Below, piece by piece: positions 1-3,006 of a stretch of 64,000 bases of DNA. The notes under the pieces are model-generated. The model was not told the origin of the DNA. It saw nothing but the letters and a program-made list of their open reading frames with translations, and did no database searches. Both the position numbers and the translations under genes were made by a program. This DNA comes from Desulfoluna sp. (GTDB taxonomy: Bacteria > Desulfobacterota > Desulfobacteria > Desulfobacterales > Desulfolunaceae): NCBI RefSeq assembly GCF_030145185.1, contig NZ_JAQYWB010000031.1, positions 1 through 64,000 on the forward strand, written 5' to 3'. Within the stretch, counting starts at the first letter, position 1, and each line of letters starts with the position of its first letter.

Positions 1-236
1 ATCTCCCCGCCCCCGCGCACGGCCTTCCCGCCCCTCGGCTGCTCCGCGCCTTGGGCGGGGCGGCCTTGCGCTCATCGGCTTCGGCAAACGCTTCGGTTCT
101 TCCATGGTGCGCAAGCGCACCCTACCCCATCACCCATTTTTCCCCCCTGGCCTATTTCCTATGACCTGTTCTTTCAGGCCTTCGGCCTCCAAAAGGGAAA
201 AAGGTAAAAAACCAAAAGGCTACCTGCAAGCTCCGC
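1..236. other. Region downstream of the variable kinase, running to the window edge
   Basis: No convincing gene is visible. On the minus strand, just after the kinase stop, there is a small inverted repeat (AGGCC/GGCCT around 176-188). Next comes one copy of the short GTGCGCAAGCGCACC palindromic motif (about 105-120), which is shared with the tandem repeats near 6.2-7 kb. The outermost 100 bases are very GC-rich. In a typical DGR the accessory gene, template repeat and reverse transcriptase follow the variable gene on this side. None of them can be seen in the 236 bases available. Confidence 0.5.
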
Positions 237-2654
237 TTACAGTGTCCTCGCGAGACGAAAACCGAGGCGGCTGCCGCGATCGCCGGGGCTGCAGTTGTCG
301 CGATTGGCGCTCCGGCAGCTGCGGGCGCCGCTGCCCCAGCTACCGCCGCGTCTCACCCGGACGGAGCCTGATGACGGCCCCACTGGGTCGGTAACATTCC
401 CTGAAGGATAATCCGCAGACCAATCCTGGCACCACTCATAAACATTGCCGATCATGTCGTACAGGCCCCAGGCATTCGCCCTTTTTTGTGCCACAGGATG
501 CGTCCCACTGCGTGGACAAGAAATCTGTTTCTCTTTCCAATCTGATGAATCATACCCTCCCTCATAATCAACACAGCTATTTCCTCCATACCAGGCAATA
601 GGATCCAATGCGGGACCGTTGTTAGCCCCCTTAATTACCAGATCACCCGTATACAAAGCAGTTGTACTCCCTGCCCTACTCGCGTACTCCCACTCCGCCT
701 CCGTTGGCAAACGATAATGGGTCCCACCTTCTTTTGTGTTCAACTTCCGGATAAATTCCTGAGCATCTTCCCACGATACCTTTTCCACCGGACAGTCAGC
801 CCCGCAATTCTTAAACTTCGATGGGTTCCCACCCATCACCGCCTTCCACTGACCCTGCGTCACCTCCGTCGTCTGAAGATAATAGCCCTTGGTCAATGTC
901 ACTCGGTGCTGCCTCTCATCATCATCACGCCCCGACTCCCCCGACGGGCTCCCCATCATAAATGTCCCCGGCTTGATGTAGACAAGCTGCATCCCCAAGC
1001 TGTTGGAGATTTTCACCGCAGGGCCTTTAGATACGATGCGCGCCAAGACAACCTCGGCTGTGTACTCCTGTCCCTTTGTAAGGGTGATCCACTCTTTTTT
1101 TGTTTCATACCCGGCCCGAGAGACCGACAGATGATACCGGCCCGGTTCCAGGGCCATGCCTGGGGTGAACCGGGGTTTGATGTTCAAAATCCTCACCACA
1201 GCATCGGTGGGGGTGGTGGAGGCATAAAGGTGGCCCGGTTGTACCTTCTCTTTCAGGGTCACAGAAACCCGCGCGGTTTGGCCCTTTTCCACCGTTACCC
1301 ATTTTTCCTGAGGAAGGTAGCCAGTCTTGGCAACGCGGATCTTATAGGACCCGATTTCAAGGGACATATTGTCCTGATAAGCGTGAGAACCAATCAAAAA
1401 GCTCACCGTTGCACCGCCGGGGGTGGTGGTGACAACTAGCTTGCCGGCAGATGAAACCGGAACGGGGGCTTCCGCGGTGACGGCAGGTTCTGCCTGGACC
1501 CTGACCGGCTCCCGGGCTTTATCGGCATCCCAGTATCCCCCGAAAAACAGGCCCAAGAAAATAACCATAAGCCCCGCTAAGCCCATGCCCCACTTCAAAA
1601 TAGGGGGCGGCCCCCCGGGCTTCGACCCATCGGAGGATGAAGATGATATCTTTTCAGGGATGGATGGGTTCGATGCCCTTAAGGCGTCCCCGTTAAGAGC
1701 CTCGAGCACCGCCTCGAACCCACGGAACCTTACCTGATACTCCTTCTCCAGGCACCGCATCACCACCTGGGACATTTCCCCGCTGATTCCTTCCATGGGC
1801 TCTGGAGCTTCATTCAAGACCTGATAGGAGATATCCCCGCGACTGAAGGGCGGCGTTCCCGTCAAGAGCTCATAGAGCACCACCCCAAAGGAATAAATAT
1901 CCGACTCCCGGCCCACGTTCTTGCCCCGGATTTGTTCGGGGGACATATAGACCAGGGTGCCGGAGCTTCCGGAGTTGGCGATGCGGCTCATGGAGCTTTT
2001 CACGGTCTCGGCGATGCCAAAGTCGGTGATCTTGGGTTCGCCTTCGGTGTTCACGAGGATATTCGGGGGCTTGATATCCCGATGGATGACGCCCTGTTTG
2101 TGGGCGTAGGCGAGGCCTTTGGCGATCTTGAGGCCGATGGTTTTCACCTCAATCTCGGGCAACCGTTTGTCGGGAGCCGCAAGCTTCAATTCGGTCAGGC
2201 TCTTTCCATCCACAAACTCCATGTCGATGTACTTGATGGCCCCTTTGTCCTGGAACTCGAAGATCCGGACGATGTTGGGGTGGTTGAGCTTCGCCATGGT
2301 CACCGCCTCCTTGCGGATGTTCTCCATGGCCTCAATGTCCGACGCCACCGCCTCGGGCAAGACCTTGAGCGCTTTGTCGCACTCCATCTTCCGGTCGAAG
2401 ACCCGGTAAACCGCCCCGAAGCCCCCCTGACCGAGTTTTCCCCGTACCTCGTAGCGGTCATCAACCAGATGCCCTTCGGGCAATTGCTCCAGGTTCACCA
2501 CCCCGTAGACCGGGGCATTTTTAACCACCGTTTTGTACGGGTCCGGTGAAGCTGTGGGCCCACCGCCCTCTGGCGTTGCAGCCGGAGTCCCGCAGTGGTG
2601 GCAAAATTTCGAATCACCATCCAACTCTTTCCCGCATTTTTTACAAAAAGCCAT
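237..2654 (-). CDS. Transmembrane Ser/Thr protein kinase with zinc ribbon, PEGA repeats and FGE/lectin-like variable C-terminus
   Basis: This 805-residue protein is a predicted membrane receptor kinase. A zinc ribbon (C4, C7, C18, C21) opens the protein. A complete Hanks-type kinase domain follows: glycine loop GQGGFGAV at 75-82, K97, E116, HRDIKPPN at 191-198, DFG at 211-213 and SPEQ near 238. One hydrophobic segment lies at about 352-374. Two PEGA-type beta domains (about 400-535) and a formylglycine-generating-enzyme-like domain (about 545-805; motifs GTFMMGS, RLPTEAEWEYA, GNVYEW, RRGGSW) complete it. The start was set at the ATG at 2654 because the zinc ribbon begins there and a G-rich ribosome site precedes it; an upstream in-frame extension has no such support. 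The kinase is predicted cytoplasmic and the PEGA and FGE domains periplasmic. The FGE domain may bind ligand rather than catalyse. The last ~38 codons have the composition of a DGR variable region (separate entry). Kinase and FGE calls are firm; signalling partners are unknown. Confidence 0.92.
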   Translation of the reverse strand: MAFCKKCGKELDGDSKFCHHCGTPAATPEGGGPTASPDPYKTVVKNAPVYGVVNLEQLPEGHLVDDRYEVRGKLGQGGFGAVYRVFDRKMECDKALKVLPEAVASDIEAMENIRKEAVTMAKLNHPNIVRIFEFQDKGAIKYIDMEFVDGKSLTELKLAAPDKRLPEIEVKTIGLKIAKGLAYAHKQGVIHRDIKPPNILVNTEGEPKITDFGIAETVKSSMSRIANSGSSGTLVYMSPEQIRGKNVGRESDIYSFGVVLYELLTGTPPFSRGDISYQVLNEAPEPMEGISGEMSQVVMRCLEKEYQVRFRGFEAVLEALNGDALRASNPSIPEKISSSSSDGSKPGGPPPILKWGMGLAGLMVIFLGLFFGGYWDADKAREPVRVQAEPAVTAEAPVPVSSAGKLVVTTTPGGATVSFLIGSHAYQDNMSLEIGSYKIRVAKTGYLPQEKWVTVEKGQTARVSVTLKEKVQPGHLYASTTPTDAVVRILNIKPRFTPGMALEPGRYHLSVSRAGYETKKEWITLTKGQEYTAEVVLARIVSKGPAVKISNSLGMQLVYIKPGTFMMGSPSGESGRDDDERQHRVTLTKGYYLQTTEVTQGQWKAVMGGNPSKFKNCGADCPVEKVSWEDAQEFIRKLNTKEGGTHYRLPTEAEWEYASRAGSTTALYTGDLVIKGANNGPALDPIAWYGGNSCVDYEGGYDSSDWKEKQISCPRSGTHPVAQKRANAWGLYDMIGNVYEWCQDWSADYPSGNVTDPVGPSSGSVRVRRGGSWGSGARSCRSANRDNCSPGDRGSRLGFRLARTL
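240..350 (-). other. Candidate DGR variable region (VR) at the 3' end of the kinase gene
   Basis: The final codons after GGC GGT AGC TGG are dominated by triplets ending in C whose first two bases vary: GGC, AGC, GGC, then CGC AGC TGC, then GAC, AAC, TGC, AGC, and finally GGC, AGC, CGC. All can be derived from AAC by changing only the adenines. Flanking framework codons (CGG AGC GCC AAT CGC; CTC GGT TTT CGT CTC) match the conserved tail of FGE-type DGR target proteins. Adenine-specific substitution of AAY codons at the 3' end of a C-type-lectin/FGE domain is the hallmark of DGR mutagenic homing. The template repeat and reverse transcriptase are not in the window, so this rests on codon pattern and domain type. 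Confidence 0.72.
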
Positions 2655-2904
2655 ATCCCCCCCCCAGTATCGTAGTCGCCCCCAGGCAACAGGTATTTTG
2701 CCTGTAATCAAAATTATCTCTTTACTACAACAAGGCCGTAAAGACAAAATTGTTATCACTCATAACGCCATAAGATCGGTTCGCAAGCGCCCCCTGCCTC
2801 ACATCCCCCACACCGATAATCAAGGATCGAAGGGCTATGTGTAGATAGGCTCGTGCCCTGAGGATTTGCCTTTGATAAGAGATAAGAATGGATCTATTAC
2901 GTTT

Positions 2905-3006
2905 GCAACTATTCAGCTTATGCCTCCGGCGGCCCTGCCGGGGGCTAAACTTTTGATCCGCCTTCGCCCAAGGGCTACGGCGCGACAAGAAAGTTTGATA
3001 AACAGG
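2905..3006 (+). repeat. Dispersed repeat family F
   Basis: Contains the family F core CTATTCAGCT followed by GCCTCCGGCGGCCCTGCCGG, then AAACTTTTG and a TTTGATAAACAGGTTTTAAC-like end. Related copies are near 37390-37476, 47873-47956 (inverted), about 50160-50225 (partial, inverted) and 51012-51129. Confidence 0.6.

Follow-up and report, generated by a model that had tools for sequence, protein, structure and literature searches.

Target gene and variable region

The window, by which we mean the whole stretch of 64,000 nucleotides that was analysed, starts with the first base of contig C84. A gene at 237..2759 (minus strand) encodes, according to Pfam, a zinc ribbon, a Ser/Thr kinase, PEGA repeats and an FGE domain. 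The start listed for this gene is a GTG at 2759, and an ATG at 2654 may be the true one, as it is the better fit to the start of both paralogues described below. The protein kinase domain (PF00069, E=2.5e-56) covers residues 103-346 (1722..2453, minus strand), and the best-scoring PEGA stretch (PF08308) covers residues 439-504 (1248..1445, minus strand). A hydrophobic stretch in the interval from kinase to PEGA looks, by eye, like a putative membrane helix. The FGE-sulfatase domain (PF03781, E=3e-44; 246..989, minus strand) holds the variable region and was recognised both by Pfam and by sequence matches to PDB entries, the top solved structure being variable protein 1 of Treponema denticola (2y3c, E=2e-34). 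These matches suggest that the variable region is carried by a C-type-lectin/FGE fold. An AlphaFold model built from one sequence reached a mean pLDDT of 34.3 and was set aside.

On the minus strand the gene ends with VRVRRGGSWGSGARSCRSANRDNCSPGDRGSRLGFRLARTL, followed by the stop codon TAA at window positions 237-239. A preliminary description of this DNA had reported a run of triplets derivable from AAC, embedded in a conserved framework, and both are present in this tail. It had placed them at 240-350, which is the right region with a slightly different extent, the variable codons running from 362 down to 264. In this variable region of 33 codons (VR1; 264..362, minus strand), most of the variable columns lie on template adenines of diversity-generating retroelements (DGRs) from the same order.

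Variation among the paralogous targets

A DNA search of the genome with the tail returned two more strong matches. They lie on contig C118 (7.4 kb), and each is the 3' end of a gene for a 965-aa kinase-PEGA-FGE protein. These two genes are paralogous targets. The three tails read VRVRRGGSWGSGARSCRSANRDNCSPGDRGSRLGFRLA (VR1), RRVERGGSWGSRARSCRSANRSSVSLGSRSVDVGFRLA (VR2) and DRVMRGGSWFDRARLCRSADRDSSSPGYRYFSIGFRLA (VR3), and 31 of 114 columns vary among them. VR1 and VR2 display a hypervariable core between conserved flanks, with differences at 2 of 110 upstream columns, 21 of 102 columns in the VR and 4 of 84 downstream columns, whereas the contrast is weaker for VR1 against VR3 (13/110, 22/102 and 15/84) and for VR2 against VR3 (11/110, 27/102 and 11/84).

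The flanks of VR1 and VR2 diverge by 6/194, or about 3%, which predicts about three background differences inside the VR, and the C/T differences found there number three. Among the other 18 differences, 17 fall on columns that are adenines in the template of L190, a complete DGR of the same order, and one lies in an (A/C/G)TC codon. Given that the flanks are about 3% apart but 17 of the 21 differences in the VR lie on L190 adenine columns, the rewriting, or an exchange with another VR, postdates the last shared 3' ends of the two genes. At four variable columns out of the 31 (21, 77, 84 and 102) the difference is C/T and not adenine-derived, so that the earlier statement that only adenines had been altered does not strictly hold.

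The changes are also distributed unusually within codons. Between VR2 and VR3, codon positions 1, 2 and 3 changed 13, 11 and 2 times in the VR versus 110, 97 and 282 times elsewhere in the gene (p=2.5e-7). The skew has the same direction in all six pairs that can be formed from the three genes and a homologue in the related genome G006, with p values ranging from 0.047 (VR1 against G006) to the 2.5e-7 just given.

Comparison with templates of other genomes

DGR reverse transcriptases (RTs) were searched for in 146 genomes of the order with an alignment that combined the L110 RT fragment with Brt of BPP-1, and at a threshold of 183 bits, set by ourselves, 13 of these genomes had an RT. Of the 17 RT loci looked at (L178-L194), 16 showed the SQ/YxDD motif pair and 14 had a nearby N-rich reading of the same framework, which in L190 is NRVNRGGGWNNNAANCRSANRNNNSPGNRNNNLGFRLALSP. 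As proxies for the template (TR) we used 13 sequences, namely 12 of the 14 N-rich readings and L075, which comes from outside the set of RT loci and in which a VR/TR pair of its own was seen; L178, which is one residue longer, and L184, whose framework differs, had been excluded by hand before counting. The L190 template has an A at 25 of the 31 columns that vary in the genome under study versus 3 of the 83 constant ones (Fisher p=2e-16), and across the 13 proxies an A stands at 17-25 of the 31 variable columns (p 1.1e-6 to 2e-16). This adenine-column footprint, measured against templates of other genomes, does not depend on codon usage.

The template of L208 (genome G233; NGSNRVNRGGSWNNNARNCRSANRNNNTPGNRNNNLGFRLASTQ) was the nearest to the hypothetical template of the genome itself among the matches scored, of which there were two candidates per genome; the five templates in this comparison were chosen by hand. 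It has an A at 25 of the 31 variable columns (p=1.5e-13), and each of the three VRs has another letter at 20 of its 32 adenines. Its non-A letters differ from the three VRs at 16-17 of 82 positions, mostly third positions, as is to be expected for a template from another genus. The variable columns that are non-A in L208 are the four C/T columns together with columns 12 and 97, where the genome's own template may read AAA and ATC, respectively, and seven adenine columns of L208 are without variation in the three VRs. The own template is predicted to read SNRVKRGGSWNNNARNCRSANRNNNS-GNRNNNLGFRLAR.

As a control we used the DGR of L190 (G066:C12), where one TR/RT lies between two FGE target genes. 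Mismatches between VR and TR fall on TR adenines in 17/18 and 17/17 cases (34/35 together), as do 19/20 differences between the two VRs. In each VR, 17 of the 28 adenines of the template have been replaced, which is near the 20/32 of our VRs against L208. The genome under study, with 25/31, is less clean than this control and compares well with T. denticola, for which an excerpt of PMC4891356 gives A in the TR at 38/56 mutated columns.

The codons themselves carry a matching signature. Where L208 reads AAC (12 positions), the three paralogues have a C at the end of 35 of their 36 codons, the expectation from their own codon usage being 12.9 (third-position C amounts to 27% in the three genes); the resulting P=5e-16 is inflated, as paralogues are not independent of each other and the framework codons are C-rich too (15/26 in VR1, by eye). 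This count of codon ends agrees with variable codons that derive from AAC or AAT.

We therefore read the 3' ends of the three kinase genes, in the window and on C118, as DGR-written variable regions, to which we assign a probability of about 0.9, and we hold the origin of the variation in a DGR to be a shade firmer still. The central claim of the preliminary description, a DGR-type variable region on a domain of the FGE/C-type-lectin type, is thereby borne out, with 2y3c as the best structure match and paralogue variation mostly on the template-adenine columns of the same order. A history without any retroelement, in which diversifying selection or gene conversion acted among FGE paralogues at loop positions where the framework varies, appears highly improbable to us. 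The RGGSW...GFR framework is indeed common to many FGE homologues, and the near-identical flanks of VR1 and VR2 in otherwise diverged genes suggest gene conversion. However, the same codons change at positions 1 and 2 while the third stays C, the variable columns coincide with template adenines nucleotide by nucleotide, and conversion alone shifts variants without being able to generate such a spectrum.

Under the DGR reading, a template rich in AAC would be copied into RNA and this RNA reverse-transcribed with random bases at the adenines, and the cDNA would replace the last ~100 bp of each of the three genes. This homing would yield three receptor-like kinases with a common FGE/C-type-lectin scaffold and differing residues at presumed ligand-contact positions. 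The kinase probably reports ligand binding by the FGE/C-type-lectin face, a role that we infer from the domain order and from DGR targets described in the available parts of PMC7517822 and PMC10907252.

Search for the template and the reverse transcriptase

The assembly (G000) comprises 5.79 Mb in 152 contigs and is 96.92% complete and 3.89% contaminated. DNA searches of it with the tail and with the hypothetical template returned the three VRs and otherwise chance-level pieces; the absence of a TR rests on the template-query search, in which all candidates in eight family genomes were scored. A TR at window positions 1-3000 was ruled out, the VR being without a repeat there. The preliminary description had expected the template and the RT to the left of the window, where contig C84 ends; neither was found elsewhere in the assembly. 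RVT_1 located three RT places (C114, C26 and C31), and the DGR-RT profile found the same three only, at 62 bits or less. None of the three was accepted as the missing DGR RT, since TIGR04416, the model for group II intron maturases, matches them all: two score above its cut-off, and the one on C31, a fragment cut by the contig end, scores below. In a sensitivity control, RVT_1 recovered the DGR RTs of 4/4 genomes (G066, G083, G133 and G127). PF05635, the one family used to look for an accessory protein such as Avd, had no match in the genome; Avd is not known from all DGRs. Rfam gave no match in four loci. The preliminary description had named two findings that would speak against it together: the lack of a template and RT is what we observed as far as the assembly reaches, whereas variation off the template adenines was mostly not seen.

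The position of the contig ends is relevant here, as they lie 236 and 239 bp past the stop codons of the VR1 and VR2 genes. The ends of C84 and C118 share an identical 144 nt (1..144 of the window), of which these are the only two full copies. Partial matches belong to a dispersed repeat family with at least 44 matches in G000 (40 of 95 candidates were scored) and the core GGTAGGGTGCGCTTGCGCACC, which by its look may be REP-like. Since the assembly is broken at a repeat directly behind two VRs, a cassette located there could be missing from it.

Our best reading is that these genes are orphan or remote DGR targets whose cassette is unassembled, unbinned or lost. That the cassette exists in the organism, either in the assembly gap at the ends of C84 and C118 or on an unbinned element, has roughly even odds; its loss comes somewhat short of that, and some other state of affairs is left with a small share.

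Mobile elements are often missing from binned assemblies, and a DGR on a plasmid, a phage or another unbinned element might diversify the chromosomal targets in trans. Two scans of viral contigs yielded no exact match to the tail pattern or the template pattern, and a plasmid scan yielded one partial match, on a Prosthecochloris plasmid; all of these scans need a close sequence and are weak negatives. Targets diversified in trans (PMC10907252) and remote kinase/C-type-lectin targets in cyanobacteria (PMC7517822) are described in the excerpts of these reports; we consider such an element an unlikely source. It is unlikely too that several VR-bearing receptor kinases are kept diverse without a chromosomal DGR by an engine acting in trans, with targets and engine inherited separately; that engine would be either a DGR on a mobile, unbinned element or an RT of another type, for instance a resident group II maturase.

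Variable regions in related genomes

No DGR-type RT was found by RVT_1 in any of the eight family genomes (8/8); an RT fragment in G003 (L059) and an RT-like ORF of 1294 aa in G006 (L054), which has the motif GLPQG instead of the SQ motif, remained without class. The DGR-RT profile likewise found no DGR-type RT in G000, G001, G002 and G007, nor in G001 and G003-G006, where the best match had 93 bits versus 183 in G066. In G006, which is 97% complete, a homologous VR-type kinase gene lies inside a 544-kb contig, and neither a TR nor a DGR RT was found in this genome. Directly behind that gene, an IS200-like transposase gene was noted (L060 10207-10761 on G006:C16; Y1_Tnp, PF01797, barely over the cut-off), which may be of the REP-associated kind. 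G001:C72 has two tandem FGE genes (L061 8528 and 9857) with tails that differ at 28/114 columns, and 17 of these columns are adenines in L208; G001 is the weaker case because the upstream flanks of its two genes differ as well (44/300). In the remaining five family genomes the template query gave one weak match, in G002, and none in the other four. VR-type genes are present in G000, in G006 and, less clearly, in G001.

Such a distribution could mean that the cassette was lost from the lineage and that the VRs are drifting remnants, which we regard as possible, at somewhat less than even odds. Neither our 97%-complete assembly nor G006 and G001, both with VR-type FGE genes, revealed a TR or RT, and DGR-type RTs were found in 0/8 genomes of the family. 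The four C/T columns would correspond to ordinary drift, and left-over targets in strains without complete DGRs are reported for T. denticola in the excerpt of PMC4891356. On the other hand, the rewriting or VR exchange that is later than the shared flanks of VR1 and VR2 fits poorly with drifting remnants, and the contig ends shortly behind the two stop codons leave room for a hidden cassette.

Inverted repeat at the stop codon

An inverted repeat with an 8-bp stem and a GGA loop spans the stop codon of the window gene (224..242, minus strand) and is a candidate for a target-site hairpin or a terminator. The stem is perfect in VR2 and VR3, and in VR1 a C-G pair is replaced by T-A on both sides and one T-G wobble occurs; its z score is -3.6 for VR2/VR3 and -2.1 for VR1. 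It is kept in four genes, the three of this genome and that of G006, with 8 bp (7 in G006) and a 3-nt loop, GGA or GAA. According to the excerpt of PMC3240598, BPP-1 has an 8-bp stem with a 4-nt loop, the stop codon is boxed in the structure figure, and efficient homing needs the structure; hairpins of phage DGRs have stems of 7-10 bp and a 4-nt GRNA loop.

Whether this element serves as a transcription terminator only or as a DGR target site is evenly balanced in our view, and the terminator reading has no bearing on the VR itself. The G006 stem is followed by two G and then seven T, as would suit a terminator, and the 3-nt loop is a poor fit to the GRNA loop of the phage hairpins. In contrast, a terminator scan of the window did not list the inverted repeat, the stem is conserved in the four genes and its change in VR1 is a paired one, and a search of the genome for its pattern with up to two mismatches gave no other places than those behind VR2 and VR3. 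Among VR genes of other genomes, that of L211 has a perfect stem, and none was seen in the stretch examined behind the VR genes of L075, L227, L228 and L233 and the two of L061.

Relation to known systems

Several elements of our best reading are already in print, as kinase/C-type-lectin DGR targets, remote targets, action in trans and left-over targets all appear in the excerpts of PMC7517822, PMC10907252 and PMC4891356. The remote DGR proteins of cyanobacteria (PMC7517822, in part) resemble ours in joining a Ser/Thr kinase to a C-terminal variable domain, there of the C-type-lectin type, in having several paralogues per genome and a 3' VR, and in being distant from the cassette. They differ in that DGR components exist in the genomes there, whereas none were found in our assembly, and the zinc ribbon and PEGA repeats belong to ours only. 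T. denticola (2y3c; PMC4891356, in part) shares the FGE-type domain, the RGGSW...GFRLA framework, multiple targets and target-only strains; there, a DGR is present in 9/17 strains, whereas the targets described here are kinase fusions for which no TR/RT was found. The DGR of G066:C12, from the same order, has the template reading given above, FGE targets and variation at A columns in common with our genes, but its RT and TR lie beside two targets, and each target entered this comparison with its final ~260 residues. In Thiohalocapsa PB-PSB1, the targets are likewise FGE/CLec proteins and a protein kinase domain is among the domains of a figure legend, but the cassettes are known; according to the excerpt of PMC10907252, incomplete loci there either undergo diversification in trans or are accounted for by intact variants within the population. 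The main text of PMC8144416 does not mention kinase, FGE, sulfatase or Desulfo.

Comparing paralogues with the templates of relatives thus allows a DGR footprint to be recognised without an RT or a template, and receptor kinases with zinc ribbon and PEGA repeats join the likely targets of DGRs. Should the family truly lack the engine, these genes would suit the study of targets that outlive, or borrow, a mutagenic machinery.

Two further loci deserve mention. A self-scan for A-bias in loci L019-L144, with the window and L001-L018 outside its range, found pairs only in L075, L092 and L098. The pair in L075 (10541-11060) is a clean VR/TR pair, 381 nt apart, in an FGE gene that belongs to 'bacterium isolate bin.35', with no RT seen by eye among the listed ORFs of at least 80 aa in its surroundings. 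At L127 10598, an FGE reading from Nitrospirae, SNRVIRGGSWNNNPNNLRCSNRNNNAPTDRNNNVGFR, has template-like Asn nearly throughout and is either an unmutated VR or a template.
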